The position numbers and the translations under genes are program-made. The notes under the pieces are model-generated. The model ran no database searches. It had not been told where the DNA came from and saw only the letters and a list, made by a program, of their open reading frames with translations. From contig VMSX01000010.1 in assembly GCA_013791905.1 (NCBI GenBank), positions 62,001 to 126,000 on the forward strand: a stretch of 64,000 bases of DNA, written 5' to 3'. Below, piece after piece: positions 38,738 to 60,894 of the stretch (positions are counted from its first letter, which is position 1; each line of letters starts with the position of its first letter). The stretch is from Rhodocyclaceae bacterium. Lineage in GTDB: Bacteria > Pseudomonadota > Gammaproteobacteria > Burkholderiales > Rhodocyclaceae.

Positions 38738-41700
38738 ATGATTCTTCCTGCCAGTGCGCCCACCGGGGCGTTTGACCGGACAATCAGACCGAGCATAGAC
38801 TCAGCCTTTCTGGCACCGCGCGCGGCGGGCCTTGCATTCGCCTATTTTCTGCTGGTTCTGGCGGGTCAACTGCTGCTTATGCCGGGGCAACATGGCGGGC
38901 CGTTGTGGCCAGCGGCCGGCCTGGCGCTCGCCGCGCTGGCGGTCTGGGGCTGGCGCTACTGGCCGGCGCTCTGGCTGGGCGGCTTTGCCGCCATTTTGCT
39001 TTACCACACGGCACTCACCGGTGAGGCGGTAACGCTTGCGACGCTGCTGCTGGCGGCGCTGACCGCTACCGGTCTCGCCCTGCAGGCCGTGCTCGGCGCG
39101 CTGCTGACGCGTCGCTTCCTGCGATGTGCCGAGCCGCTGACGCGGGAACGCGATGCCTTGGCCTTTTTCGGACTCGGCGGGCCACTCGCCTGCCTTGTCG
39201 CGCCGACGGTCGGCATCGCCGCGCTGCATTTTTTGGCAGGACTCCCGGCATCAGCGCTCGTCGCCGCCTGGCTGACCTGGTGGGCCGGTGACGTCATCGG
39301 CGTGCTGCTGTTCGCGCCGCTTGTCTTTCTAATCTTGCCGGGCTCGCGCCATCACTGGCGCGACCGTGCCCTGCAGATCGCCGGCCCGCTTTTGCTGACC
39401 AGCACGCTGCTGGCTGGCGGCTACTACTGGGTGGTACAAACCGAGCAGGATGACCACCGTGAGCAGGTCATAAAAAAGGCCGCGGAATTGCGCGACCACC
39501 TGGAGGCCATACTCAACCAGCGCACGGAGCGCCTGCAAGCCATCGAGGGACTGTTCGAGGTCAGCGAAACCGTCACGCAGGAAAGGTTCGCTGCCTTCAA
39601 CCGACTGGCCGCGACGCACCGCGGCGTCCACCTCATCGAATGGGCACCGCGCGTCACGCATGCCGAGCGGACAGCGTTCGAAGCAAGCGCGCAGCGCGCG
39701 GGCCTGAGCGGCTATTCACTGGTCGAACTCGACGACAGCGGCGCCTTTATGCCGGCAGCCGAACGCGCCACTTATTTTCCGGTGCGCTTCGCCACGCGCA
39801 ATGACGCATCAGTACCGCTCGGTTTAAATCTCGCTGCCAACCCCGCCCAACGTGCCGCCATGAGGCTTTCTGCCGAGACCACGCGGCCGGCGCTGGTGGT
39901 GCGCGACGCCAGCTTCGACCGCGCTGCCAAGGCCGACAACTGGCGGATCTTTGCGCCCATCTACCGACCCCACTTCGACGCGGAGACCGCGGATGCCGCG
40001 GCGCGGTACACAGCCTTGCGCGGCTTTGCGGTAGCCATAGTCGACCCGGAAGATATGTGGGCGCAGCAGACCAAATACGCGATCGAGAAAAGACTCGCCT
40101 TCCGCATCACGGCCCTCGCCGACTGGAACGCCACCGTGCGCCCGTTGCTCGGCGGCACCTTACCGATTGGCCGCGAGACGAACCCGGACTGGCGCGGCCA
40201 AATTGGCGGTTTCGCTGGCCCCGGACTGAGCGTGGAGGTCTGGTCGCCCACCACCTGGCTGCCTGGGCAGTCAGCCAGCGTACTGCTCTATCTCGGCGGC
40301 AGCTTGCTGATCGCGCTGCTTACCAGCACCTTTGGCTTCGCCGTTGCCGGCCACAGCCGGCACATGGCGCGCGAAATCATCGAGCGCAAGCAAACCGAGT
40401 CGGCAGTCCGAAAACTGAACGCCGAACTGGGGGATCGCGTCGCCGAGCGCACCACCGAACTGACCCAGACCAACGAGCGGCTGCGCGAAACCAGCGCACG
40501 CGTGACGGCGATTCTCGACACCATGGCGGACGGCGTCATCACCATCGACGAGCGCGGCATCGTGCAGTCGATCAACCCCGCCGTTGAGCGCCTGTTCGAC
40601 TACAGCGCCGCCGAAATCGTCGGGCAGCACTTCAAGATGCTGATGCCAGAACCCTATCGCAGCGAACACGATGGCCACCTGGCACGCTACCTTGCCACCA
40701 GAAAGGCTAACGTCATGGGCAGCGACAGCGGCCGAGAATTCCTCGGCCAGCGCCGCGATGGCAGCATTTTCCCGCTCGAAATAACCCTGAGCGAACTGCA
40801 TCTTGAAGGCAAACTCAGCTTCACCGGTATCTTGCGCGACATCAGCGAACGCAAGGCCGGCGAACGCGCCGCGCGCCATCTGCACGATGCCGTGCAGGCC
40901 ATTCCCGACGGCTTCACCATTTACGACCCCGCTGACCGACTGGTGCTGTGCAACAGCAAGTATCGGGAAATTTATCGGCTGGAGGCCATCGACCACCTTG
41001 AGGGTCGCAGTTTCGAGGAAATCTTGCGCATCGGCCTGGCGCACGGCGACTATCCAGCGGCGCTGGGCCGCGAGGATGAGTGGCTGACCGAGCGGCTCTA
41101 CGCGCACCGCAACCCCGGCGCGCCGTTCGATCAACTGCTGCATGACGGGCGCTGGATACGCGTCACCGAGAGCCGGCTGTCCGATGGCTCGATCGCCGGC
41201 ATGCGCATGGACATCACCGAACTGAAACATGCCGAAGCGGCGAGCGAGGCAGCCCGCGCGGCGGCCGAGACGGCCAACCGTGCCAAGTCAGAATTCCTGG
41301 CGGCGATGAGTCACGAGATCCGCACGCCGATGAATGGAGTCGTCGGCATGATCGACGTACTGCAGCAGAGCAGTCTCCAGGGCAATCAGGTCGAGATGGT
41401 CAATACCATCCGCGAATCGGCATTTGCGCTGCTCGACATCATCGAGGACATTCTCGATTTCTCCAAGATCGAGGCCGGCAAGCTGGAGCTCGAACAGGTG
41501 CCGACAGCGATCGCCGCAGTGGTGGAAAAAGCCTGCGGCATGCTCGACAACCTGGCGCTCAAGAAAGATGTCGATCTGACACTGTTCACCGATCCGGCCA
41601 TTCCGCCACTGGTCATCGGCGATCCGCAGCGCCTGCGCCAGATCGTCATCAACCTGGCCAACAACGCCATCAAGTTTTCCAGCGGACTGGAGCGGCCGGG

Positions 41701-43459
41701 CCACGTAACGGTGCGCGCCGTGTTGGTCGCCCGCAATGCGGAGCGGGCCCTCGTCAACATCAACGTCACCGACAACGGCATCGGCATGGATACAGCCACC
41801 CAGGCGCGCCTGTTCTCCCCCTTCACCCAGGCCGATGCCTCGACCACCCGCCGCTTTGGCGGCACCGGGCTGGGACTCACCATTGCCCGCGACCTGGCCG
41901 AACTGATGGGCGGCGACATCTCCGTGCACAGCACACCGGGACAAGGCGCCACCTTTACCCTGCACCTGCCCTGCGTGCCCGTGGCGACAGAAGTCGCAGA
42001 AACCCCATCGCCGGCGCCACTGGACGGACTGCCCTGCCTGGCGGTGGGCGACGCCGGCGGCCTGGCCGACGACCTGGCGACCTATCTGGGCGCCGCGGGC
42101 GCCCGGGTCGAGCGGGCGGCAGACCTGGCAGCGGCGTGCGAGTGCGCCGGGCCGGACGCGCCCGGCCCGTGGATCTGGCTGGTCGACGCGGGCAACGCGC
42201 CGCCCGCGCCAGATGCCCTGTCCCGCATCATCGACAGCCGAACCGCGCAAAACCTGCGCTGCGTCATCGTCATGGGTCGCGGCAAGCGCCGCCTCTCGCG
42301 CCAGCAGTCTGCCGATGAAAGGGTATTCCAAATCGACGCCAATGCCCTGACGCGACTAAACGTCATCAACGCGGTAGCGATAGCTGCCGGACGCACGCCT
42401 AAGAAGCAGCAGCAAGCTGCACGCAAGAAGAGCACGGCGACGCTGATACAGCCGGCGCGCGCGGACGCACTGCGCCAGGGCCGGCTGATCCTGGTGGCGG
42501 AAGACAACGCCACCAACCAGAAGGTGATCCTGCAGCAACTCGCCCTGCTCGGCTTCGCCGCCGACGTCGCGGCTGACGGTCAGGCGGCGCTGCAACGCTG
42601 GCAGAGCGGCGACTATGCCCTGCTGCTCACCGACCTGCACATGCCGGAGATGGACGGTTACGAACTCGCCATGGCAATTCGCGAACATGAAGCCGGCCGG
42701 CGCCGCCGGCCGATCATCGCCCTCACCGCCAATGCACTCAAGGGCGAAGCGAAGCGCTGCCGCGCCGTCGGCATGGACGACTATCTGTCCAAGCCGACAC
42801 CACTCGCCGAACTCGGGGCGATGCTGGAAAAATGGCTACCCGTCACGGCAGCCGTCGTTGTCCCCGATTTACGTGGCGACCCGGCTGACGGTCATGGGGC
42901 TTGCACCACCACGGATCATGAAAGTTTCGCGCCATGCCCGCACCCTCTCCCCCAACCCCTCTCCCGCAAGCGGGAGAGGGGAGATGTTCTCCCTCTCCCC
43001 AGCGGGGAGAGGGTTGGGGAGAGGGGAGAACGGCGCGAGCCGCTCCGCGTCTTTCACGTTAACGCCGTCTCGCCAGCGCCGACTTTTAGTGCTGACGAGA
43101 CGCCCTCAACGTCGCCAGCGTCGTCTGCGGTCGCGGTGGACGTCAGCGTGCTCGCCGCCTTGGTTGGCGACGACCCGATGACGATCCGCGAGTTCCTGCT
43201 CGACTTCAGCGCCAGCGCCACCAAGATCGCGGCAGAACTTTCCGCCGCCAGTGCGGCCGGCGATGCGGCGCTGGTCGGCGCACTGGCGCACCAGTTGAAG
43301 TCTGCGGCGCGTTCGGTGGGTGCGCTGGCGCTGGGCGAACAGTGCGCCCAACTGGAGAAAGCCGGCAAGGCCGGCGACATTGAAACCGTGGCCGCACGCT
43401 TGCCCGGCTTCGCGCAGGAACTGGCCGCTGTGCAGGCGTCGCTGAATTCCCGCGTATAG
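38738..43459 (+). CDS. MASE1-CHASE-PAS-PAS hybrid histidine kinase with receivers and Hpt
   Basis: Inner-membrane hybrid kinase of 1573 residues. Domains in order: MASE1 helices (about 30-215), periplasmic CHASE (about 240-450), helix, coiled coil, FixL-like PAS (585-705, His644, Arg666), second PAS (710-830), HisKA with His859 (SHEIRTPMNG), HATPase (960-1085), a degenerate receiver (1090-1220), receiver with Asp1299 (LTDLHMPEMDG), and Hpt with His1518 (AHQLKSAARSVG). The REC-Hpt linker is swollen by about 70 residues encoded by dispersed repeats (42889-43086), rich in Pro/Arg. It is first gene of the ten-gene signalling operon; the next start is 7 bp away. Ligand unknown. Confidence 0.9.
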   Translation: MILPASAPTGAFDRTIRPSIDSAFLAPRAAGLAFAYFLLVLAGQLLLMPGQHGGPLWPAAGLALAALAVWGWRYWPALWLGGFAAILLYHTALTGEAVTLATLLLAALTATGLALQAVLGALLTRRFLRCAEPLTRERDALAFFGLGGPLACLVAPTVGIAALHFLAGLPASALVAAWLTWWAGDVIGVLLFAPLVFLILPGSRHHWRDRALQIAGPLLLTSTLLAGGYYWVVQTEQDDHREQVIKKAAELRDHLEAILNQRTERLQAIEGLFEVSETVTQERFAAFNRLAATHRGVHLIEWAPRVTHAERTAFEASAQRAGLSGYSLVELDDSGAFMPAAERATYFPVRFATRNDASVPLGLNLAANPAQRAAMRLSAETTRPALVVRDASFDRAAKADNWRIFAPIYRPHFDAETADAAARYTALRGFAVAIVDPEDMWAQQTKYAIEKRLAFRITALADWNATVRPLLGGTLPIGRETNPDWRGQIGGFAGPGLSVEVWSPTTWLPGQSASVLLYLGGSLLIALLTSTFGFAVAGHSRHMAREIIERKQTESAVRKLNAELGDRVAERTTELTQTNERLRETSARVTAILDTMADGVITIDERGIVQSINPAVERLFDYSAAEIVGQHFKMLMPEPYRSEHDGHLARYLATRKANVMGSDSGREFLGQRRDGSIFPLEITLSELHLEGKLSFTGILRDISERKAGERAARHLHDAVQAIPDGFTIYDPADRLVLCNSKYREIYRLEAIDHLEGRSFEEILRIGLAHGDYPAALGREDEWLTERLYAHRNPGAPFDQLLHDGRWIRVTESRLSDGSIAGMRMDITELKHAEAASEAARAAAETANRAKSEFLAAMSHEIRTPMNGVVGMIDVLQQSSLQGNQVEMVNTIRESAFALLDIIEDILDFSKIEAGKLELEQVPTAIAAVVEKACGMLDNLALKKDVDLTLFTDPAIPPLVIGDPQRLRQIVINLANNAIKFSSGLERPGHVTVRAVLVARNAERALVNINVTDNGIGMDTATQARLFSPFTQADASTTRRFGGTGLGLTIARDLAELMGGDISVHSTPGQGATFTLHLPCVPVATEVAETPSPAPLDGLPCLAVGDAGGLADDLATYLGAAGARVERAADLAAACECAGPDAPGPWIWLVDAGNAPPAPDALSRIIDSRTAQNLRCVIVMGRGKRRLSRQQSADERVFQIDANALTRLNVINAVAIAAGRTPKKQQQAARKKSTATLIQPARADALRQGRLILVAEDNATNQKVILQQLALLGFAADVAADGQAALQRWQSGDYALLLTDLHMPEMDGYELAMAIREHEAGRRRRPIIALTANALKGEAKRCRAVGMDDYLSKPTPLAELGAMLEKWLPVTAAVVVPDLRGDPADGHGACTTTDHESFAPCPHPLPQPLSRKRERGDVLPLPSGERVGERGERREPLRVFHVNAVSPAPTFSADETPSTSPASSAVAVDVSVLAALVGDDPMTIREFLLDFSASATKIAAELSAASAAGDAALVGALAHQLKSAARSVGALALGEQCAQLEKAGKAGDIETVAARLPGFAQELAAVQASLNSRV
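42889..43086. repeat. R4-R2-R1 repeat cluster inside the hybrid kinase gene
   Basis: Three elements lie in series. R4-like is at 42889-42924 (CACCACCACGGATCATGAAA). R2 is at 42938-43028, a large inverted repeat of CCCTCTCCC / GGGAGAGGG blocks whose outer arms CTCTCCCCCAACCCCTCTCC and GGAGAGGGTTGGGGAGAGGG pair. R1 is at 43061-43086. The segment TCTTTCACGTTAA (43050-43062) also recurs at 8358-8370. The frame is kept throughout, giving the peptide that ends NAVSPAPTF. Confidence 0.75.
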
Positions 43460-43466
43460 GAACGAC

Positions 43467-46154
43467 ATGCAAGCACAACAGAAAACAGGACAGTTCAGCT
43501 TGGAAGCGAAGGTGCGAGCCGCCTTCCTCGCCGCCGTCGTGATGGTTCTGGTTTCGGCCGTGACGATGTGGAAAGTGTCACAAGACGCGATGGAGGCAAC
43601 ACACTGGGTGGCCCACACGCATGAGATCCTCGAAAACCTGTCCAGCGTGAATAGCGACACACTGCGCATCGAGTTGGGCACGCAAAGCTTCCGTATTTCT
43701 GGCGACCCGGCGCATCTGGCGGAGCGCGACGCGGCGATCGCAGCGCGCGAAGTTGCACTGCTCAAGCTCAAGGATCTGGCGGCACACAGCCCCAGCATGT
43801 GGGCGCTCTGGGTGCAACTGCGCGCAACGGCGGATGAACGCCTGGCGATTGCCAAGCGATCATCATTTCTGCGTGAAACACAAGGCCTTGCAGCTGCCAG
43901 CGCCTATGTGGCCAGCGCCCCGCTGCATGAAACGCGTGAGCGGATGGCGCGTCTGTTGGCAGAGATGCAGCAGGAGGAGAGCCGGCTGCTGGCGGAGCGC
44001 ATCACAACCCAGACGCAGATGCGCGAACGCCTGGTGACCAACAGCATTTTTGTCGTACTCGCATTGCTGGTGTTGCTGGCAGCAACCTTCGTGCAGTTTC
44101 GCCAGCAGATCCGCACCACCGAGGCCAGCCGGCGCGATCTGGCAACCGCCAATGAACGGGTTCAGGCGATCCTCGACGCCGTCGGCGACGGCCTGCATGG
44201 CATTGACAGGGATGGCAACATTGTTTTCGCGAATCCCGTGGGCATCGCCATGCTCGGCTGGGATCCAGAAGAGCTGATCGGCCGGCACGCACACCCCCTG
44301 ATGCACCACACGCGGGCCGACGGCTCGCCCTACCCGGCTGCGGAATGCAATATCTACGCAACGATGCAGGATGGCGTTTCACGCCAGGTCGAGGATGAGG
44401 TGTTTTGGCGCAAGGATGGCAGCAGTTTTCCGGTCGCTTACACCAGCGTCGGCATGCGCAATGAGGCAGGCGAATCCACCGGTGTCCTGGTGTCGTTTCA
44501 CGACATCACCGCGCGCAAACAGGCTGAACAGTCGCTCATCGCCGCCAAGAACGCGGCGGAGCTGGCCAACCGCGCCAAGGATTCCTTTCTGGCCACCATG
44601 AGCCACGAAATTCGCACGCCGCTCGGCGGCTTGCTGGGCATGCTGGAACTGCTCGCCTTGTCCCCACTCAATCGCGAGCAAAACGAAACACTGCAAACAG
44701 CGCAGGATTCCGGGCACAGCCTGCTACGCATCCTGAACGATATCCTCGACTGGTCGAAGATCGAGGAAGGCAAGCTCGAACTGGCGCCGCAAGCCATCTC
44801 GCTGCGCCAGCTCGTGGCCGAAGTTGCCAACACCTATGCGCATGTCGCCAGCGCCAGCCACGTGAAACTGACACAGCAGGTCGATGCACACCTCGCTCCG
44901 GCGCACAGCGTCGATCCCTTGCGGCTCTCCCAGGTGCTCAACAACTTCGTCAGCAACGCCATCAAGTTCAGCCACGGTGGAAAGGTCGAACTGCGTGCCG
45001 CACTGCTCGAACGGGGCGACGGCACCGAGCAGCTGCGATTTTCCGTTAAGGATACCGGTATCGGCATCGAGCCGGCGGCCCAGCAACGTCTGTTCCAGTG
45101 CTATGGCCAGGCAAATGCCGACACGGCACGCATGTACGGCGGCACCGGACTCGGGCTGGCGATCTGCCGACGCCTGGCGGATTTGCTGGGCGGAAGGATC
45201 GAGCTGGAAAGCACACCCGGCCAAGGCTCCACCTTCAGCCTCACACTCACCCTGCCGATAGCGGAGGCTGTGCTCGCACAAGCTCCGGCAGAGCGAATCG
45301 CCGCCCAAAGCGTGCCGCTTGCTGTTCAGAGCGCCGCGACCGCCAACGCACCGCTGATCCTGGTGGTGGATGATCATCCGATCAATCGCAAACTGCTCGC
45401 TCGCCAGCTCGGACTACTCGGTTTGCGAGTCACGACCGCGGAAAACGGGGAAGCCGCCCTGGCACTGTGGCGCGCAGGTGATTACGCGCTGATCATCACC
45501 GACTGCCACATGCCGGTGCTGGATGGCTACGCGCTGACGCGCGCGATACGCGCCAGCGAAACGGCAAAGGCGCGGCCGCGCACGCCGATCTTCGCCTGGA
45601 CCGCCAATGCGCTGGCCGATGAAAGCGAGAAATGCCGCGTCGCCGGCATGGATGAATTGCTGGTAAAGCCCGCCGATCTGCCGCAATTGCAACAGATGCT
45701 GGCAAAGTGGCGGCTGATTGCCACGGAAGCGCCGTCTGACCTTGCACAGCCATCCGCGCCACCAGCCGCTGCAGCGCTAGCGGTCGATGTGAACGTACTT
45801 AAGGTGCAGATCGGCAACGACATGGCGATCGTCTGCGAATTTCTGCAGGACTTCCGCGCCAGCGCCACCATGATCGCGGCCGAACTGGCCGCCGCCAGCG
45901 CGGCCGGCGACGCAGCGCAGGTCGGCGCACAGGCACACAAACTGAAGTCCGCGGCGCGCGCGGTGGGCGCACAGGCGCTCGCCGAACTATGCACCGAGCT
46001 GGAAACGGCCGGCCGGGCCGGGCGGGGTCAGGAACTACCTGCCATCATGCTAAAGTTAGATAAAGAAATGGCGGCTGTCGATGCGGAGTTGGCCGACTTG
46101 ATGGCACGTCACGCCACGCCGCGGCAGAAAACAATTGGAGAGAAATTACTATGA
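43467..46154 (+). CDS. PAS hybrid histidine kinase with receiver and Hpt
   Basis: Membrane hybrid kinase of 895 residues. A first helix (about 12-30) and a second (about 190-212) frame a helical periplasmic sensor of the 4HB/CHASE3 type. A PAS domain follows (about 225-350), then HisKA with His380 (SHEIRTPLGG), HATPase (about 470-600), receiver with Asp679 (ITDCHMPVLDG) and Hpt with His824 (AHKLKSAARAVG). Its Hpt is very similar to that of the preceding kinase, so the two may feed a common receiver. Its last four bases overlap the REC-EAL gene. Confidence 0.92.
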   Translation: MQAQQKTGQFSLEAKVRAAFLAAVVMVLVSAVTMWKVSQDAMEATHWVAHTHEILENLSSVNSDTLRIELGTQSFRISGDPAHLAERDAAIAAREVALLKLKDLAAHSPSMWALWVQLRATADERLAIAKRSSFLRETQGLAAASAYVASAPLHETRERMARLLAEMQQEESRLLAERITTQTQMRERLVTNSIFVVLALLVLLAATFVQFRQQIRTTEASRRDLATANERVQAILDAVGDGLHGIDRDGNIVFANPVGIAMLGWDPEELIGRHAHPLMHHTRADGSPYPAAECNIYATMQDGVSRQVEDEVFWRKDGSSFPVAYTSVGMRNEAGESTGVLVSFHDITARKQAEQSLIAAKNAAELANRAKDSFLATMSHEIRTPLGGLLGMLELLALSPLNREQNETLQTAQDSGHSLLRILNDILDWSKIEEGKLELAPQAISLRQLVAEVANTYAHVASASHVKLTQQVDAHLAPAHSVDPLRLSQVLNNFVSNAIKFSHGGKVELRAALLERGDGTEQLRFSVKDTGIGIEPAAQQRLFQCYGQANADTARMYGGTGLGLAICRRLADLLGGRIELESTPGQGSTFSLTLTLPIAEAVLAQAPAERIAAQSVPLAVQSAATANAPLILVVDDHPINRKLLARQLGLLGLRVTTAENGEAALALWRAGDYALIITDCHMPVLDGYALTRAIRASETAKARPRTPIFAWTANALADESEKCRVAGMDELLVKPADLPQLQQMLAKWRLIATEAPSDLAQPSAPPAAAALAVDVNVLKVQIGNDMAIVCEFLQDFRASATMIAAELAAASAAGDAAQVGAQAHKLKSAARAVGAQALAELCTELETAGRAGRGQELPAIMLKLDKEMAAVDAELADLMARHATPRQKTIGEKLL

Positions 46155-47365: not shown

Positions 47366-47380
47366 TCAGGAAACCACACC

Positions 47381-48559: not shown

Positions 48560-48608
48560 ACATCACCTGCATTCTCACCTTGCATGAGAAAGTGACGGCA
48601 TTTTCGCT

Positions 48609-51600
48609 ATGGAATCACCCGACAATATTCACGCTTTAGAGACTGCACAACCTCGTTCCAGGAAAAACGCCGAACGGGCGCAGCTCGATGCGGCCGCCGA
48701 CCTGGACGCCACCTTGCGGGCCATCCCCGATCTGCTCTTCGAACTGGACGACAAGGGGCGCTACCTGCAGGTCTGGACAAACCAGCCCGAACTGCTGGCC
48801 GCGCAACGGGAGCTGCTGCTGGGACACACCGTGGCCGAGATGCTGCCTGCGCCAGCGGCGGCGACAGTGCTGGCGGCGCTGCAGGAAGCCGCCAGCACCG
48901 GCCATTCCCAGGGCCAGCAGATCAGCCTGCCGCTGCCCCAGGGGGAATGCTGGTTCGAGCTATCGACGTCCCGCAAAATCAACCCCACCGATGGCCAGTT
49001 GCGCTTCATCATGCTGTCGCGGGACATTTCCGCACGCAAGCGGATGGAGCAGATTCTGCAAGCCCTCGGCACCGCACCGACCGGTCAGGAATTTTTCAAT
49101 TTCCTGACCGGCCAGTTGGCCAAACTGCTGGAGGTCGAGGTGGCGTTCATCGGCGAGCTCCTGCCCAACGGTCGAGCCCGCACCCGCGCCATGATCATCG
49201 ACGGTCAGGCGGTGCCGTCACTGGAATACGATCTGACCGGCACACCCTGCGAGAGCGTGATGGGGAAAACGCTGTGCGTTTATCCGGATACCGTGCAGCA
49301 ACGCTTTCCTCATGACACGATGCTCGCCGATCTGGGCGTGGTGGCCTATGCTGCCGCCCCCTTGTGGAACAGCCAGCAGCGCCCCCTGGGCCTGATCGGC
49401 ATCATGGGCCGCCGGCGCATCGAGCAGCCCGCAGCGCTGGAAAACATCTTGCGGCTCGTCGCCCTGCGGGCCGGCGCCGAGTTGGAGCAGGAACATCAGC
49501 AGCGCGCCATGCGCGAAAACGAAGAAAAATACCAGCGCCTGGTGGAAAGCCTCGGGCATGAATATCTCTTCTACCGTCACGATGCCGCGGGCGTCTTTAC
49601 CTATCTGAGCCCCTCCATCGAGACCATATTGGGATATACGCCCGCGGCTTTCAAAACCCATTACCGCCAGTTCTTGACCGACGATCCAGGCAATGCGCTA
49701 GCGATCAGGTATTCCGAGGAGAGTCTGCGCGGCAAGCCCCCGCCCCCCTATGAAGTGGAAGTACGGCGCAAGGACGGCAGACCCTGCACCCTGGCAGTGA
49801 GCGAAATACCGGTTTTCGACCCGACTGGCCAGGTGGTGGGCGGCGAAGGCATTGCGCATGACATCACTGCACACAAGGCGGCGGAGCGCAGGCTGCGCAG
49901 CATGGCTTCTGAACTGGAACAGCGGGTCGAGGAACGTACTCTGGCCCTGGCAAACAAGGAAGAGGAAACCCGCTCTCTGGTAGACAACTTATTGGATTGC
50001 GTCATCAACATCGACGGCCAGGGCATCGTACGCTCGGCCAACCCCGCCGTCGAACGCATCCTGGGCTGGCGCCCGGATGAGCTGATCGGCCAGAACGTCA
50101 GCGTGCTGACCCCCGAACCGCATCGCAGCGCCCACGATGGCTATCTGGAGCGTTACCAGCGTACCAATCAGGCGCACATCATCGGCAGCGGCCGCGAAGT
50201 GGAAGGCCTGCACAAGAATGGACAACTGATCCCCATGGAATTGGCGGTGAGCGAATACTGGGTGCAGGGAAAACGCTTCTTCACCGGCACCCTGCGCGAT
50301 ATCACCGAACGCAAGGCGGTCGAGGCAGCACTGCAAGCAGCAAAAGAAGAGGCGGAAGCCGCCAACCGCGCCAAGTCGCTCTTTCTTGCCGCCATGAGCC
50401 ACGAAATCCGCACGCCGATGAACGGAGTGATCGGCATGGTGGAATTGCTGGCGCAAGGCCGGCTGGATGAACACCAGCAGGAAATGGTCGAAACGGTACG
50501 CGAGTCGTCCTTTTCCCTGCTGCGGGTCATCGATGACATCCTCGATTTTTCCAAGCTGGGGGCGGGAAAACTGACTATGGATGAGGAACCACTGTCTCTG
50601 GAGCGCCTGCTGGAAGGGGTGTGCGACGGCCTCGAAGCGGTGGCACGCAACAAACGCGTGGATCTGTATCCATTCATCGACCCGGCCCTGCCGCAACAGG
50701 TAGTGGGCGACGAGGGACGCTTGCGCCAGATTCTCAACAACCTGGTCGGCAATGCCATCAAATTTTCCGCAGCCAGCGCTGGGCGCGGCCGGGTCGCCGT
50801 GCGTGCCACATCACTCGGCAGCAGCGACGGACGGGTGGCGTTGTGCCTGAGTGTTGCCGACAACGGCATCGGCTTGTCAGTCGAGGAGCAGGCCAGCCTG
50901 TTCAAACCTTTTATACAGGCGGATGCCTCAACCACCCGGCGCTTTGGCGGCACCGGACTGGGGCTTTCCATCGTGAAACATATCGTCGATCTGCTGCATG
51001 GCGACATCCAGATCAGCAGCGCCTCGGGTGCGGGTGCGACATTTACCGTCAACCTGAACCTGCCCATCGCGCCGGGTGCCGCCACGGCACCCGCTGCACC
51101 GGCTTTGAATGACCTGGAATGCCTGTTGGTGACAGAGGACGCAGAGCGTGCCCACGACCTGGGCGTCTATCTGACCGACGCCGGCGCGCAGGTACGCCGC
51201 GCCGCCACGCTCGACGCCGCCCTACTCCAATTGAAGACGCTGCCGGCCCAAGGGTCATGGGTGGTGATTCACGACACCGGCCTGGAGCAGCCACAACAGG
51301 AAGCATTGATCGCCCTGCGGGAGGCGGTGTTGGAACCCCATTTCCTGCTGCTGCTCAACCATGGCTTGCGTCATCGGCCCCGTTTGGAAGCGCCGGGCAT
51401 CGTCAGCCTCGACATCGAGCTTTTGCATCGCCGCACCTTGCTGGAGGCGGTGGCCATCGCGGCAGGGGGGGCATCGGCCCAAGCACTGGCTTCCCGGCCA
51501 GAGCCTGCTCCGGCGCCGGCACCAACCACAATCGCAGCATGGCACCTCCCCATCCTGGTGGCCGAAGACAACCCAATCAACCAGAAAGTCATCGTCCGCC

Positions 51601-52301
51601 AGCTGCAACTGCTCGGTTACCGCGCCGAAGTCGCCGGTGACGGTGAGGAAGCGCTGGAGATCTGGCGTCAGGGCAAGTTCAGCCTGATCCTGTCCGACCT
51701 GCACATGCCGAAGCTGGATGGCTGCGCCCTGGCTGCAGCCATCCGCCAAGAGGAGCCAGCGGGTCAGCGCATCCCCATCCTCGCCGCCACTGCCAACATC
51801 CTGAAAGAGGACCGGGAGCGCTGTCTGAAACTCGGCATGGACGACGTATTGATCAAGCCGGTGCAGCTACCCGTCCTCAAAGCGGCCCTGGAAAAGTGGC
51901 TGGCGGGAACGCTGGCAAACCGGGCCGGCAAGGACAGCACTGCCGCGCCACCTCCCCCATCTCCCGGCTTGGCGGTGCTGGATACTGCAGTGCTTGAAAA
52001 ACTGCTCGGCGACAACGCCCCGACGCTCATCACCGAGTTTCTGGACGACTTCCAGACCTCGGCCCGGCAAACCGCCGCGGAGTTGCATGCTGCCTGGGAC
52101 AAGGGCGATCTGGCCGCTGTGGGCAGTGCGGCCCACAAGCTGAAATCGTCATCCCGCGCCGTGGGCGCCCTCGCCCTGGGTGAGTTGTGTGCCGCACTGG
52201 AAAAGTCCGGCACTGCCGGAGATCGCGTAGCGCTTAGCGCATTGATGCCGGAGTTCGAGGCCGGGATGGTGGCTGTCGAAAGGGAAATTGATGCGCGTTA
52301 G
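48609..52301 (+). CDS. PAS-GAF-PAS-PAS hybrid histidine kinase with receivers and Hpt
   Basis: Hybrid kinase of 1230 residues with no obvious membrane helix, so probably cytoplasmic. Order: PAS (about 30-145), GAF (150-300), PAS (305-425), coiled coil, FixL-like PAS (455-575; His509, His523, Arg529), HisKA with His598 (SHEIRTPMNG), HATPase (700-825), a degenerate receiver (835-960), receiver with Asp1030 (LSDLHMPKLDG), and Hpt with His1176 (AHKLKSSSRAVG). The C-terminal half mirrors the first kinase of the operon, including the degenerate receiver, so they are paralogues. It starts 49 bp after the preceding gene. Confidence 0.92.
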   Translation: MESPDNIHALETAQPRSRKNAERAQLDAAADLDATLRAIPDLLFELDDKGRYLQVWTNQPELLAAQRELLLGHTVAEMLPAPAAATVLAALQEAASTGHSQGQQISLPLPQGECWFELSTSRKINPTDGQLRFIMLSRDISARKRMEQILQALGTAPTGQEFFNFLTGQLAKLLEVEVAFIGELLPNGRARTRAMIIDGQAVPSLEYDLTGTPCESVMGKTLCVYPDTVQQRFPHDTMLADLGVVAYAAAPLWNSQQRPLGLIGIMGRRRIEQPAALENILRLVALRAGAELEQEHQQRAMRENEEKYQRLVESLGHEYLFYRHDAAGVFTYLSPSIETILGYTPAAFKTHYRQFLTDDPGNALAIRYSEESLRGKPPPPYEVEVRRKDGRPCTLAVSEIPVFDPTGQVVGGEGIAHDITAHKAAERRLRSMASELEQRVEERTLALANKEEETRSLVDNLLDCVINIDGQGIVRSANPAVERILGWRPDELIGQNVSVLTPEPHRSAHDGYLERYQRTNQAHIIGSGREVEGLHKNGQLIPMELAVSEYWVQGKRFFTGTLRDITERKAVEAALQAAKEEAEAANRAKSLFLAAMSHEIRTPMNGVIGMVELLAQGRLDEHQQEMVETVRESSFSLLRVIDDILDFSKLGAGKLTMDEEPLSLERLLEGVCDGLEAVARNKRVDLYPFIDPALPQQVVGDEGRLRQILNNLVGNAIKFSAASAGRGRVAVRATSLGSSDGRVALCLSVADNGIGLSVEEQASLFKPFIQADASTTRRFGGTGLGLSIVKHIVDLLHGDIQISSASGAGATFTVNLNLPIAPGAATAPAAPALNDLECLLVTEDAERAHDLGVYLTDAGAQVRRAATLDAALLQLKTLPAQGSWVVIHDTGLEQPQQEALIALREAVLEPHFLLLLNHGLRHRPRLEAPGIVSLDIELLHRRTLLEAVAIAAGGASAQALASRPEPAPAPAPTTIAAWHLPILVAEDNPINQKVIVRQLQLLGYRAEVAGDGEEALEIWRQGKFSLILSDLHMPKLDGCALAAAIRQEEPAGQRIPILAATANILKEDRERCLKLGMDDVLIKPVQLPVLKAALEKWLAGTLANRAGKDSTAAPPPPSPGLAVLDTAVLEKLLGDNAPTLITEFLDDFQTSARQTAAELHAAWDKGDLAAVGSAAHKLKSSSRAVGALALGELCAALEKSGTAGDRVALSALMPEFEAGMVAVEREIDAR

Positions 52302-52331
52302 CGATCATCTTCCCATCAGACCGGGGCGCGC

Positions 52332-53438
52332 ATGAAAGCTTGGCAGGATCATCCCGTTATCCTGCGGCGCCAGCGCTCGAAACCCAGGCAAGAAGACCTC
52401 GCGCTGCGCCAGAGCGAAGCCAGGCTGCGCGAGGCGCAGCGCGTGGCGCAAATCGGCAGCTGGGAACTCGATCTGCTGGAAAATCGCCTCTGGTGGTCCG
52501 ACGAGATCTACCGCATCTTCGAAATCGACCCGGCGCACTTCGACGCCACGTTTGAATCATTCATCGCCGCCATCCATCCCGCGGACCGGGACAGCGTCAG
52601 CCATGCCTACGAAAACTCCCTGCAGACCCGCAGCCCTTACGCAATCGAACACCGCCTGCTGTTTCCCGGTGACCGGATCAAATGGGTCCGTGAGCGTTGC
52701 GAAACGCACTATGACCCCGCCGGAATGGCGCTGCGCTCCATCGGCACAGTGCAGGACATCACCGCACGCAAACTCGACGAACTGGCCTTGCAGCGCAACT
52801 TGCAGGAAAAAGAGGAGCTGCTGCGTGAATTGCACCACCGGGTCAAGAACAACATGCAGGTGGTCACCAGCCTGCTGAACATCCAGGCGCGTCACCTGAA
52901 CGCCGACAACGCGTTGAAAATCTTCAACGATAGCCGCGAGCGCATCCGCGCCATGGCGATGATCCATGACCGGCTTTACAGCTTCCCGGACCTGGCCCAT
53001 ATCGACATGATTCCCTACCTGAGCTATCTGGCGGCGCACCTGCCGCGCATCTATCATCACTGTCCTGCCGATGCCCGCATCAAGGTCGTCGGTGTCAGCC
53101 CCCCACTGACGATCAAACAGGCCCTGCCTTGTGCGCTGATTGCCCACGAGTTGATGTTGAATGCCCTGCGCCATGGCGGCGGCGACGGCCCGACCGAGAT
53201 CGAAGTCAGCCTGGCGGCCGAACCGCTCGGCGAATGCCGACTGGTGGTGCGCGACCATGGACCCGGCCTGCCCGAGTGGCGGCAGGGGGCAGCGCCTGGC
53301 CTGCCCGGCGTGGGCACGACCCTGGTGCGGGAACTGGTGCGCCAGTTGCATGGCCGGGTGGACTTCTCTCCGGCCATGCCCGGCGCACGCGCGACACTGA
53401 GCTTTCCGCTTGCATTGACCGAAAAATCGAGACCATGA
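52332..53438 (+). CDS. PAS sensor kinase of the HisKA_2 type
   Basis: Soluble kinase of 368 residues. The PAS domain (about 30-150; VAQIGSWELDLLENRLWWSDE) is followed by a HisKA_2 dimerisation domain with the phospho-His in LLRELHHRVKNNMQVV (His168 or His169). The HATPase has ALIAHELMLNALRHGG (N box) and VVRDHGPGLPEW (G1 box). This class typically pairs with receivers like the one that starts the next gene, whose ATG overlaps its stop. Confidence 0.9.
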   Translation: MKAWQDHPVILRRQRSKPRQEDLALRQSEARLREAQRVAQIGSWELDLLENRLWWSDEIYRIFEIDPAHFDATFESFIAAIHPADRDSVSHAYENSLQTRSPYAIEHRLLFPGDRIKWVRERCETHYDPAGMALRSIGTVQDITARKLDELALQRNLQEKEELLRELHHRVKNNMQVVTSLLNIQARHLNADNALKIFNDSRERIRAMAMIHDRLYSFPDLAHIDMIPYLSYLAAHLPRIYHHCPADARIKVVGVSPPLTIKQALPCALIAHELMLNALRHGGGDGPTEIEVSLAAEPLGECRLVVRDHGPGLPEWRQGAAPGLPGVGTTLVRELVRQLHGRVDFSPAMPGARATLSFPLALTEKSRP

Positions 53439-54541
53439 GCACCCCCAGTATTCTGATTGTCGAAGACGAAGCCCTCACCGCCGAGGACATCCGCGCCCAT
53501 GTGGAAGAGGCCGGCTATGAAGTCAGCGCCATTGCCGCCTCGGCCACCGAAGCACTCGACCTGCTGGCCGGCAGCCGCCCGGACGCGGTGCTGATGGACA
53601 TCGTCCTCGAAGGCGAAATGGACGGCATCGCTGCCGCCGAGCAGATCCGCAAGCTGTATCAGATCCCCGTCGTCTTCCTGAGTGCCTACAGCGAACGGGA
53701 ACTGGTCGAGCGGGCGCAGGCCACGCAGCCCTACGGCTATCTGCTCAAACCTTTCGACCAGCGCGAACTGCGCACCACCCTGGCGCTGGCCCTGCATAAC
53801 GCGGCCAGGGACAAGGAGATGCGCGACCAGCAGCGCTGGTTGCAGGCGGTGCTCGCTTCTCTGCATGAAGGGGTGATCATGGCCGACCGGCAAGGCCGGA
53901 TCATGGCCCTCAACCGGGCCGCCGAAGTTCTGCTCGACCGGCAGACAGATCAGGTGGCTGGCGCCCCGCTGACTACAGTGCTAAACCTCGCCAGCCCGGC
54001 CCAGACGGTGCAACTGACGGAAGCCATGACCCGGGCGACCCATCTGGGCGAAGCCATGCCCGCGCCCGTGGAGGTTGATCTGCTCGGCCCCGGGGGCATG
54101 CCGCAGCCCACCGCGCTGGCCGTATCCCCCGTCACCCGGGACGATGGCACCCTGGACGGGCTGGTGCTCAGCCTGGTCGACGTCAGCCGGCAACGCGAGG
54201 CCCGGCAGCGACTGAAAAACCTCAATGCCGAGCTGGAGCAGCGCGTCACCGAGCGTACCGGAGCGCTACAACAGGCCACCTTGCGAGCAGAAGCGGCCAG
54301 TGCCGCGAAGAGTAACTTTCTGGCCCGCATGAGCCACGAATTGCGCACACCACTCAACCCCATCGTTGCCTATGCGGAAATGATGACGGTAGACCGCAGC
54401 CTGCCGGAAGATACCCGCGCCATGGCCGAAGACATGCTCGCCGCCGGGCAGCATCTGCTGGACCTGATCGGCCAGTTGCTGGCCGCCAGCGAGCAGGACG
54501 GCCTGCCCACAGAAAACAACCATGGAGACGCCGATGCTTGA
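53435..54541 (+). CDS. REC-PAS-DHp protein lacking an ATPase domain
   Basis: Protein of 368 residues. The receiver (1-125) has Asp55 (LMDIVLEGEMDG), followed by PAS (about 135-255), a coiled coil and a HisKA-type DHp segment with His301 (SHELRTPLNP). It stops about 65 residues after that His, before any HATPase domain. ATG 53435 overlaps the previous stop; the longer frame from 53129 lies inside the upstream gene. It cannot phosphorylate itself in cis, so a neighbour must act on it, or it is a relay protein. The next gene overlaps its end. Confidence 0.85.
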   Translation: MSTPSILIVEDEALTAEDIRAHVEEAGYEVSAIAASATEALDLLAGSRPDAVLMDIVLEGEMDGIAAAEQIRKLYQIPVVFLSAYSERELVERAQATQPYGYLLKPFDQRELRTTLALALHNAARDKEMRDQQRWLQAVLASLHEGVIMADRQGRIMALNRAAEVLLDRQTDQVAGAPLTTVLNLASPAQTVQLTEAMTRATHLGEAMPAPVEVDLLGPGGMPQPTALAVSPVTRDDGTLDGLVLSLVDVSRQREARQRLKNLNAELEQRVTERTGALQQATLRAEAASAAKSNFLARMSHELRTPLNPIVAYAEMMTVDRSLPEDTRAMAEDMLAAGQHLLDLIGQLLAASEQDGLPTENNHGDADA

Positions 54542-57233
54542 ACCTCCCATCCCCGCCGACGAAGCGGCACGGCTGCAGGCCCTGCACGCCCTGAACATCC
54601 TTGACACCCCCGCCGAGGAGCGTTTCGACCGTTATACCCGCCTCGCCCAGCACATCCTGCAGACCCCCATCGTGCTGATCAGCCTGATCGATGGCGAGCG
54701 CCAGTGGTTCAAGTCGCGCCAGGGGCTGGACGCGACGGAAACGCCGCGCGACATCTCCTTCTGCGGCCACGCCATCCTCGGCAACGAACTGTTCTGCATC
54801 CCGGATGCCGCCGCCGACCCGCGCTTTGCCGACAACCCCCTGGTCACCGGGGCACCGGACATCCGCTTCTACGCCGGTGAACCACTGACACTGGCCGGTG
54901 GCGAGCACGTCGGCACCCTGTGCGCCATCGACCGCGTGCCGCGCACCCTCAGCGATGCACAGCGCGCGGCCCTGCACGACTTGGCGCAGTGCGTGGCCGA
55001 CGAACTCCAGGTCGAGACGACGCAGACCGCTTTGCAGGACAAGGAGCGGCTGTTGCAGCAATCGTCCGAGAGGGTGCGCAGCATCATCGACACCGTGGTG
55101 GATGGCATCATCACCATCGATGCAGGGGGCTTGATCCAGACGGTCAACCCGGCCACCGAACGCCTGTTCGGCTACGCGGCGGCGGCAATGATCGGGCAAA
55201 ACGTCAAGCTGTTGATGCCCGAGCCCTTCCACAGCGCCCATGACGGCTATCTGCATAATTACACCTCCACCGGCGTAAAAAAGATCATCGGCATCGGCCG
55301 CGAGGTGGTCGGCCGGCGCCAGGACGGCACCACCTTTCCCATGGATCTGGCAGTGGGCGAAATGACGGTCAATGGCGCACGGATGTTCACCGGCATCGTG
55401 CGCGATATCACCGAACGCAAGGCAGCCCAGCACGAGCTGGACCAGTTCAAGAGCACGCTGGACCAGGCGATGGACTGCGTGTTCATGTTCCGGCCGGGTA
55501 CGCTGAAATTCTTCTACGCCAACCGCGGGGCGATCGAGCAGGCGGGCTACAGCATCGATGAGTTACGGCAGATGACGCCCCTCGACCTCAAGCCGCACTT
55601 CGACGAGAACAAGTTCCGCGCAAAGTTGGCGCCGCTGCTCGCGGGAGAAAAGGCCTTGGTGACATTCGAAACCGAGCACCGGCACAAGGACGGCCACCTG
55701 ATTCCCGTGGAAGTCTCTCTCCAATACGTAGCCCCGGCCAATGAACCGCCGCGCTTCGTCAACTTCGTGCGCGACATTTCCGAGCGCAAGAAGATGGAGC
55801 GCATGAAGAGCGAGTTCGTCTCCACCGTCAGCCACGAACTGCGTACCCCGCTCACCTCGATTCGCGGCGCCCTCGGCCTGGTGCTGGGCAAGTTCGGCGC
55901 CGGCATGGCGGACAAGGCCCGGCAATTGCTGGAAACCGCCAACCGCAACAGCGAGCGGCTCACCCTGTTGATCAACGACATCCTGGACCTGGAGAAAATC
56001 GAATCGGGCCGCCTCGACTTCGAGTTCAAGTCATCCGACCTGGTGGCCATTGCGCGCCAGGCCATCAGCGCCAACGAGGGCTACGGCCACCAACACGGTG
56101 TGCGGCTGCGTCTGGTGGCGGCGCCCGAGCAGGCCCGGCTGTGGGCCGACGAGCACCGCCTGCTGCAGGTGTTCGCCAACCTCATTTCCAATGCAGTCAA
56201 ATATTCGCCCCGGGACGGCGAGGTGGAGGTCGGCATCCACGCGACCGACGGGCACTGGCGTGTCAGTGTGCGCGATCATGGCCGGGGCATTCCCGCTGAG
56301 TTTCGCTCGCGCATGTTCCAGCGCTTCGCCCAAGCAGACAGCTCGGACACGCGCGAGAAGGGCGGCACCGGGCTGGGGCTTTCCATCACCAAGGCCATCG
56401 TCGAACGGCATAGCGGCAGCATCGATTACACGACGACGGAAGGCCAGGGCACGGAATTCTTCTTCATCCTGCCGCAGTGGCAGGCAACGCCCGAACCGGC
56501 CGCCGCGACGGATACGCGCCCCTGCATGCTCATCTGCGAGGATAACGCCGATGTGGCCATGGTACTGGGCGAACTGCTGAACCAGGAGGGGATCGCCAGC
56601 GATGTCGCCACGACCGGCGCGGCGGCCAAGGCAATGCTGGGGCGCAAACCTTACCGCGGTCTGCTGCTGGACCTCGGCCTGCCCGACATGGATGGTCTGG
56701 TCCTGCTCCGCGAACTGCGCGCCGACGCAGCGACCCGCGAGCTGCCGGTGGTGGTGGTGTCGGGTCGCACCGCTCCAGGCAACCAGTGGGCCGGGGAGTC
56801 GCTGGCGGTGATCGACTGGCTGCAGAAGCCGGTGGATCGGGAGCGTTTGAGCAGTGTGCTGTCCCATGTGCTGAGCCATGGCCAGCCCCCCCGCATCCTG
56901 CATGTCGAAGATGATCCGGACATCATCCAGGTGACCCAGACACTGATCGAGGAATTGGCCGAATACCATTACGCCACTTCCCTCGCCGCAGCCCGCGCCA
57001 AGCTGCGGGACGCTCATTTCGACCTGCTCCTGCTCGACCTCACTCTGCCCGACGGCTCCGGTACCGAACTGCTGGAGGACCTGCCGTCCGACACTCGAGT
57101 GGTGATATTTTCCGGCCTCGAAACGGGACAGGCATTCAACGAGCAGGTGGTCGCCGCCCTGACCAAGGGCAAGACCTCCAACGAAAAACTGGTGGCCACC
57201 CTGCGCCAGATCATCAATCAGAAACGGGACTGA
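54534..57233 (+). CDS. GAF-PAS-PAS histidine kinase with two C-terminal receivers
   Basis: Cytoplasmic hybrid kinase of 899 residues from ATG 54534, which has GGAG 6 nt upstream; ATG 54522 is the alternative. Domains: GAF (about 20-165; FCGHAILGNELFCIPDAAAD), FixL-like PAS (175-300; His236, Arg256), PAS (305-420), HisKA with His434 (SHELRTPLTS), HATPase (540-660; GGTGLGLSITKAIVERH), first receiver with Asp713 (LLDLGLPDMDG) and second with Asp835 (LLDLTLPDGSG). It has no Hpt, unlike the other hybrid kinases here. The start overlaps the previous gene by 8 bases. Confidence 0.92.
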   Translation: MLEPPIPADEAARLQALHALNILDTPAEERFDRYTRLAQHILQTPIVLISLIDGERQWFKSRQGLDATETPRDISFCGHAILGNELFCIPDAAADPRFADNPLVTGAPDIRFYAGEPLTLAGGEHVGTLCAIDRVPRTLSDAQRAALHDLAQCVADELQVETTQTALQDKERLLQQSSERVRSIIDTVVDGIITIDAGGLIQTVNPATERLFGYAAAAMIGQNVKLLMPEPFHSAHDGYLHNYTSTGVKKIIGIGREVVGRRQDGTTFPMDLAVGEMTVNGARMFTGIVRDITERKAAQHELDQFKSTLDQAMDCVFMFRPGTLKFFYANRGAIEQAGYSIDELRQMTPLDLKPHFDENKFRAKLAPLLAGEKALVTFETEHRHKDGHLIPVEVSLQYVAPANEPPRFVNFVRDISERKKMERMKSEFVSTVSHELRTPLTSIRGALGLVLGKFGAGMADKARQLLETANRNSERLTLLINDILDLEKIESGRLDFEFKSSDLVAIARQAISANEGYGHQHGVRLRLVAAPEQARLWADEHRLLQVFANLISNAVKYSPRDGEVEVGIHATDGHWRVSVRDHGRGIPAEFRSRMFQRFAQADSSDTREKGGTGLGLSITKAIVERHSGSIDYTTTEGQGTEFFFILPQWQATPEPAAATDTRPCMLICEDNADVAMVLGELLNQEGIASDVATTGAAAKAMLGRKPYRGLLLDLGLPDMDGLVLLRELRADAATRELPVVVVSGRTAPGNQWAGESLAVIDWLQKPVDRERLSSVLSHVLSHGQPPRILHVEDDPDIIQVTQTLIEELAEYHYATSLAAARAKLRDAHFDLLLLDLTLPDGSGTELLEDLPSDTRVVIFSGLETGQAFNEQVVAALTKGKTSNEKLVATLRQIINQKRD

Positions 57234-57236
57234 ACC

Positions 57237-57626
57237 ATGACCGACACCCTCAAGATATTGTATGTGGACGATGAACCCGACATCCGCACGATTGTCCAGT
57301 TTGCCCTCGAAGACGAAGTGGGCCTGGAATTGAAGTTGTGCGCGTCGGGCCAAGAGGCGCTGGATCTGCTCGCCCACTACCGGCCGGACCTGATATTGCT
57401 CGATGTGATGATGCCCGGCCTGGATGGCCCATCCACGCTGCAACACCTGCGTGCGCTGCCCGGACTGGCCCATGTGCCGGTGGCCTTTGTCACCGCCAAG
57501 GTGCAAGCCCAGGAAGTCGCGGGGCTCAAGGCCCTGGGGGCCACCGCGGTGATCGCCAAGCCCTTTGATCCCATGTCCCTGCCCGACCAGGTGCGGACGC
57601 TCTGGCAGGCCAGCGTCCATGGCTAG
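57237..57626 (+). CDS. Single-domain response regulator
   Basis: Lone receiver of 129 residues. The acidic pair is in LYVDDEPDI, phospho-Asp56 in LLDVMMPGLDG, Thr in FVTAKV and Lys in AKPFDP. No output domain, so it is probably a phosphate shuttle or acts by protein contact. It lies 3 bp after the two-receiver kinase and overlaps the Hpt-REC-REC gene by 8 bases. Confidence 0.92.
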   Translation: MTDTLKILYVDDEPDIRTIVQFALEDEVGLELKLCASGQEALDLLAHYRPDLILLDVMMPGLDGPSTLQHLRALPGLAHVPVAFVTAKVQAQEVAGLKALGATAVIAKPFDPMSLPDQVRTLWQASVHG

Positions 57627-58814
57627 CCCGCTCGCCGACAAGCAGGCCAAGCTGCTGGCCTTGCGCCAGCGCTGGGCGCTGGAATTGCCCGAGCGGCTGG
57701 CAGCCATGTCCACGAACTGGCGTGAAGCACGCGCCTGCCCGGCGTGGGGCGAAGCCCACACTGCGCTGCTGCGCCAGGCCCACAGTCTGGCGGGTGCGGC
57801 CGGCACCTTCGATTTTCCGCGTCTGGGGCAGGTAGCCAAGCGTCTGGAAGACATTCTCAGCCTGTTGTCGCGGATCACCACGACCCTGTCTCCGCTCCAG
57901 GCCGGCCAGATCGAACGGCTGCTGGAAGAGTTGTCCGCAGTGGCCGCCGCCGGTCCGGAAACCCCTGCCGCCCCCGCGCAGCCGGAGCATGCGGCGAACG
58001 AAGCTACCGCAAGCGCCGCAGTGAACCAACGCATTCTGATCGCCAGCGCTGACGCCACCCTCGCCGAGCAAATTGCCGCCCGACTGGGCGCCCTGGCATG
58101 GGAGAGCCGCATTTGCCACGACGCGACGGCGGCTCTGGCCGCAATGGCAGAAATGGCCGCAGTCCCGCCAGCCGCCGTGCTCGTCGATGTCGTGCTGCCG
58201 GAAGGCAATCCTGCCGGCAGCGGGTTGCTTGGCCAGTTGGCGGCAGCAGACTATCCGCACGGCCCGCTGATCGCCCTCAGCAGCCGCTGGGATTGGCCAG
58301 CCCGCCTGGCTATCGCCCGGTCCGGTGCCGCTGCCTGTTTGCGCAAACCCATCGACGCCGACGCCTTGGCGGACACCCTCGAACGGCTGGTGCGAGGCCG
58401 CAGCAGCGACCCCTATCGCATCGTGGTGGTGGAAGACAGCACGCTGCTGGCCAGACACTATGCCCAGGTACTGTCCGGTGCCGGCATGGTGACCCAGGCC
58501 GTCACGGACCCGGCTATCCTCCTCGACGTCCTTGCTGAACAGCGTCCTGAACTGCTATTGATGGACCTCTACATGCCCGGCTGCACCGGCATCGAGGCGG
58601 CACGTGTGATTCGCCAGGATTCCCAATATGTCAGCCTGCCCATTGTGTTTCTATCTACAGAATCTGGCCTGGCCCAGCAGCAGGAGGCCATGCAAACAGG
58701 AGCCGATGATTTTCTGCACAAGCCGATCTCCGACACCAATCTGATTCAGGCGGTGACTGCCCGGGTCGAGCGTTTTCGCGCACTGGCACGTCAAACTCGC
58801 CGGGGTACGCCAGG

Positions 58815-58818
<4 letters not shown>
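57619..58818 (+). CDS. Hpt-REC-REC protein without output domain
   Basis: Protein of 399 residues. The N-terminal Hpt has His55 ([13 protein letters not shown]). The first receiver (about 130-250) has Asp190 ([11 protein letters not shown]); the second (about 260-385) has Asp316 ([12 protein letters not shown]). Its C-terminal helix ([18 protein letters not shown]) resembles the linker that normally leads into GGDEF in Hpt-REC-REC-GGDEF proteins, but the gene ends there. Start ATG 57619 overlaps the previous stop; the frame from 57565 is rejected. It ends the operon and overlaps the convergent acs-type gene at CTAG. Confidence 0.88.
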
Positions 58819-60782
<1,964 letters not shown>

Positions 60783-60788
60783 CTGATC

Positions 60789-60893
60789 GGTCCCGCCCCT
60801 CCCATCCTCCCCTCGCGGGGAGGTGACTGGGGTTTGCCGCTGACGCGGCTCCGGGTTGGTGGCTGTCGCCGCCTTGGGGCGGCCCTGCTGCGG
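60789..60893. repeat. R3 repeat between acetoacetyl-CoA synthetase and thioesterase genes
   Basis: On the minus strand it reads GGGCCGCCCCAAGGCGGCGA, CAACCCG, CCCCAGTCACC and a CTCCCCGCGAGGGGAG hairpin, matching the other R3 copies. It is open in the synthetase frame, so it could be translated if ATG 60902 is used. Confidence 0.6.
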
Positions 60894-60894
60894 C

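Follow-up and report, generated by a model that had tools for sequence, protein, structure and literature searches.

Between positions 38738 and 58818 of the window, i.e., the whole 64,000-nucleotide stretch of Rhodocyclaceae DNA that was analysed, ten signalling genes (g1–g10) follow one another on the forward strand with all frames open, and the question raised by this locus is whether they form one phosphorelay network or an assembly of separable parts. An earlier note on this DNA had read them as a many-input, shared-Hpt network with c-di-GMP hydrolysis as its only visible output. The genome assembly totals 3.64 Mb over 30 contigs, one of which, 272 kb long, contains the window. The ten genes, their flanks, and the block discussed below are as follows, "core" denoting g1–g4 and "module B" g8–g10.

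rlmJ, 37515..38372, forward strand: left flank of the insertion hotspot (Pfam RsmJ/RlmJ).
g1, 38738..43459, forward strand: MASE1-CHASE-PAS-PAS-HisKA-HATPase-(degenerate receiver)-REC-Hpt hybrid kinase, 1573 aa; core (Pfam, Hpt type).
g2, 43467..46154, forward strand: CHASE3-PAS-HisKA-HATPase-REC-Hpt hybrid kinase, 895 aa; core (Pfam; orthologue in G009, L149).
g3, 46151..47365, forward strand: RocR/PvrR-type REC-EAL protein, probably a c-di-GMP phosphodiesterase, 404 aa; core (Pfam, NCBIfam, alignment with RocR 3sy8, orthologues).
g4, 47381..48559, forward strand: pseudo-receiver, helical linker, and receiver, 392 aa; core (alignment, conservation, model).
g5, 48609..52301, forward strand: PAS-GAF-PAS-PAS-HisKA-HATPase-(degenerate receiver)-REC-Hpt, 1230 aa, with a core-type Hpt (Pfam, Hpt comparison).
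g6, 52332..53438, forward strand: PAS-HisKA_2-HATPase kinase, 368 aa (Pfam).
g7, 53435..54541, forward strand: REC-PAS-DHp (HisKA) without HATPase, 368 aa (Pfam).
g8, 54522..57233, forward strand: GAF-PAS-PAS-HisKA-HATPase-REC-REC kinase, 903 aa; module B (Pfam, gene order).
g9, 57237..57626, forward strand: lone REC, 129 aa; module B (Pfam).
g10, 57619..58818, forward strand: Hpt-REC-REC, 399 aa, without the GGDEF of its relatives; module B (Pfam, homologue comparison).
Add-on block, 48549..58812, no strand assigned: 10.26 kb; the corresponding interval of the closest relative is 1.13 kb of toxin-antitoxin DNA (blastn breakpoints, Pfam).
AMP-binding ligase gene, 58815..60992, reverse strand: right flank of the hotspot (Pfam); presumably acetoacetyl-CoA synthetase-like.

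The coordinates bear out that ten same-strand genes are separated by gaps of 3–49 bp or overlap (successively +7, −4, +15, +49, +30, −4, −20, +3, and −8 bp from g1 to g10), and Pfam searches on all ten genes agree with the domain architectures given earlier. A single receiver is recognised by Pfam in g4 (residues 273–384), the GAF domain of g5 scores slightly below the Pfam cut-off, and g1 and g5 each have an extra stretch of approximately 120 residues between HATPase and REC, which has no Pfam match and was judged by eye to be a degenerate receiver. The starts of g7 and g10 are most likely the ATG codons at 53435 and 57619, respectively. One promoter-like site, on the minus strand, was found between 44000 and 60000 vs 2.4 expected from shuffles, and one between 38000 and 44100, at 38772 within g1, vs 0.7 expected. 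Terminator-like sites exceed expectation in both intervals (19 vs 11.7 and 10 vs 5.0, respectively), and every such site on the plus strand of the cluster is intragenic. The ten genes may be co-transcribed; a 365-bp AT-richer gap upstream of g1 (GC 0.515) is compatible with a single leading promoter, though no proof of one. In GC content and codon usage, the ten genes are similar to the flanks, with only the short g9 deviating, so that composition does not support recent transfer; a foreign base composition of the cluster was considered and rejected, as none is seen against the flanks. Within g1, between REC and Hpt (42935–43045), lies an in-frame palindromic element with a predicted fold of −74.5 kcal/mol, a 40-base copy of which (85%) is found at 25613–25652; in addition, the REP-like motif CCAGCGCCGACT occurs repeatedly, near 43073, 33075, 34238, and 401.

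The tight spacing throughout favours the reading that all ten genes constitute one operon, in which every Hpt, including that of g10, shares receivers and all jointly tune c-di-GMP via g3. Its bearing was examined by searching g3, g4, and g10 in 150 genomes including that of the window, with the best 12 candidates per genome scored, and by comparing g1, g2, g5, g6, g8, and g9 within the retrieved relative loci only; several relative genomes are fragmented assemblies with contamination of up to 6%. The conserved synteny that had been proposed as a check is found for the core g1–g4, which recurs, but not for the ten-gene set at the loci examined, and a single conserved ten-gene operon was rejected since no examined relative locus has all ten genes in order. 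Among the matches listed, g3 orthologues of 52–86% identity occupy at least 15 loci in at least 14 of the 149 other genomes, and the next g3 matches listed have 44% identity or less. A protein with a g1-like Hpt (BLAST E below 1e-5; judged by eye in G018) is adjacent or fused to the g3 orthologue at 14 of the 15 loci, the exception being G105. In G009, G072, and G018, g3 is missing from the gene calls and adjacency was taken from sequence searches; in G018 and G027, the contig holds only the REC-Hpt end of the kinase. Two of these loci have fused frames: a 2573-aa open frame in G065, where kinase-REC-Hpt runs into REC-EAL without a stop, and a 1044-aa open frame in G041, where kinase-REC runs into REC-EAL. 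These fusions are the best indirect support that such kinases may serve this REC-EAL protein. Furthermore, three Hpt proteins accompany the REC-EAL gene in the window genome and at Sideroxydans locus L073, and two in G041; G024, G065, and L071 have two each if partial or lone Hpt genes are counted.

Structural comparison places g3 near known phosphodiesterases: residues 8–384 align to residues 5–383 of RocR (3sy8), the best solved relative, with E 3.9e-60, and the best NCBIfam model is PvrR (NF052596), at 290.9 bits vs a curated cut-off of 580. Read against RocR, the motifs ETLVR, NLS, EITE, DDFG (loop-6), KID, EGVE, and QGY are present. The assignment of such motifs to EAL catalysis is largely background knowledge of the family, and since those regarded as needed are present, g3 is probably an active c-di-GMP phosphodiesterase. 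The claim that c-di-GMP hydrolysis is the only visible output holds for the ten genes themselves, but 23 EAL and 43 GGDEF matches are found in the genome as a whole.

Which kinases may address g3 was approached by comparing the 18 Hpt domains found in the window genome by pairwise scores. The Hpts of g1, g2, and g5 share 51–60% identity (scores 208–247); the next closest to them is the Hpt of contig C26 (37–43%, scores 147–160), which lies beside a g4 paralogue, and the remaining 14 score 100 or less. The g10 Hpt is among these (scores 32–39), and its closest relative is the Hpt of the g10 homologue in G008. From the similarity of their Hpts, the REC-EAL protein is probably a common target of g1, g2, and g5, and the Hpt of g10 would be part of another relay. 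Against a shared target, duplicated Hpts can diverge in partner, and the C26 Hpt of related type has no REC-EAL gene among its listed neighbours. The many-input, shared-Hpt network therefore survives in part: many inputs onto one REC-EAL protein are supported by the likeness of the three Hpts, the recurring multi-Hpt loci, and the fusions, but inclusion of all ten genes is not supported, as the g10 Hpt is of another type and g8-g9-g10 form a separate module that ends in a diguanylate cyclase domain in relatives. The same observations divide over the one-operon reading, which gains from three Hpts of one type and from loci where more than one Hpt protein accompanies a REC-EAL, and loses by the different type of the g10 Hpt. 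As a separate observation, G005 has at its rlmJ site a lone 1539-aa dCache-HAMP-PAS-kinase-REC-REC-Hpt gene (L252, 1471–6090); it was considered as a core kinase and rejected, as its Hpt scores 62–68 vs g1/g2/g5 and 134 vs another Hpt of the window genome.

In the stretches examined, the fourth core gene, g4, accompanies g3 at only 7 of these loci (G009, G008, G072, G011, G057, G018, and one of the two in G065) out of 15, and is thus not obligatory. Apart from the contig of G009, the g4 scan led to g3 at Gallionella loci L071 and L072, Sideroxydans L073, and Duganella L076, each with a core-like kinase nearby (4/4; one receiver gene lies between at L071); these four were found via g4 and are therefore uninformative regarding its frequency. 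A kinase and g4 occur in G050 with no REC-EAL orthologue in the stretch examined, and L070 has g4 without g3. The window genome itself holds on contig C26 (L174, G000:C26, 11271–16076) an Hpt-bearing hybrid kinase paired with a g4 paralogue of 31% identity, and the listed neighbours include no REC-EAL; this pair suggests that g4-type proteins may have other partners. Among 14 homologues, conservation is 54.5% in the N-domain, 50.2% in the receiver, and 33.0% in the linker. The phospho-Asp position of the N-domain is occupied by Ala in 13 of the 14 and by Val in the other, and an FWP motif lies about at the expected lysine position in 13. The AlphaFold model (mean pLDDT 82.6, pTM 0.53) comprises a (beta-alpha)5 domain that is followed by an extended helical region and then a second receiver; its top Foldseek matches are receivers of approximately 120 residues, and alignment over the length with two-receiver proteins, PleD among them, is reached only at rmsd 24–28. 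A search for g4 among 72,556 plasmid records (E 1e-40) gave no match, and no study of a g4-type pseudo-receiver protein was among the open-licence PMC papers listed by literature searches.

The part of the cluster beyond g4 has a different distribution. The closest relative, G009, matches the window at 80–82% DNA identity over 43498–48548 and then jumps to 58813, so that it has g2–g4 without g5–g10; its 1.13-kb insert encodes a pair resembling YefM/YoeB as well as an HTH protein (Pfam). Remnants of g5–g10 were sought in this 1.1 kb, and none was convincing. The right junction of the add-on block coincides with the end of g10. Near-full-length matches to g7 reach 33% identity at best among those listed (60 other genomes; 61 including that of the window). 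At its far end, g8-g9-g10 have the module order kinase, lone REC, Hpt-REC-REC, and the same domains and order are found at six loci (G008, G112, G117, G104, G084, and G088). The stretches examined contain 18 full-length Hpt-REC-REC proteins, counting g10: according to BLAST, GGDEF follows in 15 (confirmed by Pfam for the G008 homologue) and a kinase in two, whereas g10 alone has no further domain. Ten of the 15 GGDEF-bearing homologues have a g9-like receiver fused to them or no more than 4 kb away. This count leaves out G062, a partial match, several further near-full-length matches, e.g., in G136, G134, G074, G070, G048, and G083, whose frames of 538–1470 aa are longer than that of g10, and a partial match in G015:C231 (query 46–343, frame 346 aa), which may be either a relative of shorter length or cut off by the end of its contig. 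Pfam finds no C-terminal GGDEF in g10. A GGDEF remnant downstream of it was also sought and rejected: tblastn of a GGDEF domain over the whole window gave a best E of 0.74, elsewhere, and none was seen by eye in six frames of 58751–59400. Since g10 ends at the right junction of the block and its relatives carry GGDEF, the hydrolysis-only output probably reflects a lost cyclase rather than one never present, as far as homologues of 30–48% identity allow. A second module in the same genome (L206, G000:C10, 12759–19145) consists of Hpt-REC-REC-kinase, a REC protein, a g9-like receiver, and Hpt-REC-REC-GGDEF with the GGDEF intact. In the examined stretches of other genomes, homologues of g8-g9-g10 occur without g3; together with the gene content of G009 and the different type of the g10 Hpt, this makes the one-operon reading quite unlikely.

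The surroundings indicate how such parts may have come together. rlmJ and the ligase gene were matched on one contig in 15 of 19 genus genomes, including that of the window. Four were left out: rlmJ has no match in G009, the ligase gene none in G010, both are without a match in G012, and in G014 the two matches lie on different contigs. Among the 14 congeners, the distance between matched ends is 3–88 bp in nine, 0.7–1.1 kb in three (G001, G006, and G007), 4.2 kb in G011, and 5.2 kb in G005, vs 20.4 kb in the window. The cargo includes a HigB-like toxin gene and an HTH gene in G007, and DUF480, glucose dehydrogenase-like, and peptidase genes in G011; the reading frames of G001 and G006 have no telling Pfam match. 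No mobility gene was seen. In G008, the rlmJ site is empty and both modules lie elsewhere, separated by approximately 12 kb that include a chemosensory set; this mostly same-strand signalling region of approximately 32 kb (G008:C144; L150, L151) holds both modules rearranged together with CheA, CheB, and CheR-like genes, and with PAS-GGDEF and REC-HD proteins. The contig of G009 begins inside g2, so that its assignment to the same site is made from the right flank alone. The simplest reading of these comparisons is that the core was inserted at the rlmJ site before the lineages of G009 and the window split, and that g5–g10 were either gained at this site or replaced in G009. The mixed cargo of the congeners (toxin-antitoxin pairs, a lone hybrid kinase, and metabolic genes) would also suit a hotspot that merely gathered unrelated signalling genes, the core and the add-on being functionally unlinked and g6–g10 largely decaying, as the missing output of g10 and the missing ATPase domain of g7 might indicate; nevertheless, ten open frames on one strand with tight spacing, the core-type Hpt of g5, and the joint, rearranged occurrence of both modules in the G008 region render such mere neighbourhood unlikely. 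We consider it probable, with some reserve, that the locus is a composite island between rlmJ and the AMP-ligase gene, in which a Roc/Vie-like core relay is joined by a second relay without output.

In such a composite island, the kinases g1 and g2, joined by g5 on account of its Hpt, would sense different cues and relay phosphate His-Asp-His internally, and their shared-type Hpts would hand it to the receiver of g3, thereby either raising or lowering c-di-GMP hydrolysis. The receiver of g4 would take phosphate from the same Hpts, and its non-phosphorylatable pseudo-receiver may bind a kinase or g3 and damp or gate the relay like VieB; the role of g4 as a relay governor is suggested by this analogy. 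Module B would be a second relay of its own type, with a GGDEF diguanylate cyclase end in relatives, and with this end gone, we propose that g10 acts as a phosphate shuttle or sink without output. A bolder reading, that loss of GGDEF rewired the cyclase relay into a regulator of the neighbouring phosphodiesterase relay, with g10 exchanging phosphate with the core, and that g4 represents a recurring class of pseudo-receiver relay governors in Betaproteobacteria, appears to us a long shot. The cluster would show the assembly of a large phosphorelay from modules at a chromosomal hotspot. Relatives provide natural pairs with and without g5–g10 and with and without GGDEF, by which the question of many kinases to one c-di-GMP enzyme becomes testable, and the conserved pseudo-receiver protein g4 is a clear target for study.

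In the open-licence PMC literature, no paper on this ten-gene architecture was found by title or abstract start. The statement that no described system has this composition was nonetheless too strong, since RocSR, PvrSR/RcsCB, ArrSR, and VieSAB have the same core logic. The sets of HK-REC-REC, REC, and Hpt-REC-REC-GGDEF in relatives have the same domains and order as g8-g9-g10, except that g10 lacks GGDEF. VieA of Vibrio cholerae carries an EAL part. The VieSAB system is described, in the available part of its account, as a kinase-REC-Hpt, a response regulator, and, as the third component, a protein that carries a receiver and inhibits the kinase (PMC4352251), and the cluster likewise has kinase-REC-Hpt, an EAL regulator, and a receiver-bearing auxiliary, g4 being likened to VieB by position only. 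By contrast, VieA also has a C-terminal HTH, whereas g3 has only REC and EAL by Pfam; the C-terminal half of VieB is, in the same part of the account, without known homology (PMC4352251). In Pseudomonas aeruginosa RocS/RocR and PvrSR/RcsCB, a REC-EAL protein is networked with kinases ending in REC-Hpt, several sensors being involved and one relaying for another, as far as the available parts of the reports state (PMC3842833, PMC12051241); according to the former, PvrR interaction was not seen by two-hybrid (PMC3842833). The core too has REC-EAL and several kinases ending in REC-Hpt, but the Roc/Pvr systems have the DNA-binding regulators RocA and RcsB and cup fimbriae as targets, and Pfam finds no DNA-binding domain, and hence no such partner regulator, in the ten genes. 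In Aeromonas veronii, ArrS/ArrR comprise a co-transcribed kinase-REC-Hpt and REC-EAL; phosphorylation is reported to lower phosphodiesterase activity in vitro, although deletion of arrS raised c-di-GMP in vivo, as given in the available part of the report (PMC11841396). That part describes one kinase with periplasmic-binding-like sensor domains and mentions no g4-like protein (PMC11841396), in which the system differs from the cluster; the likeness lies in a kinase-REC-Hpt joined to a REC-EAL protein without a transcription-factor partner (PMC11841396), as in the core.
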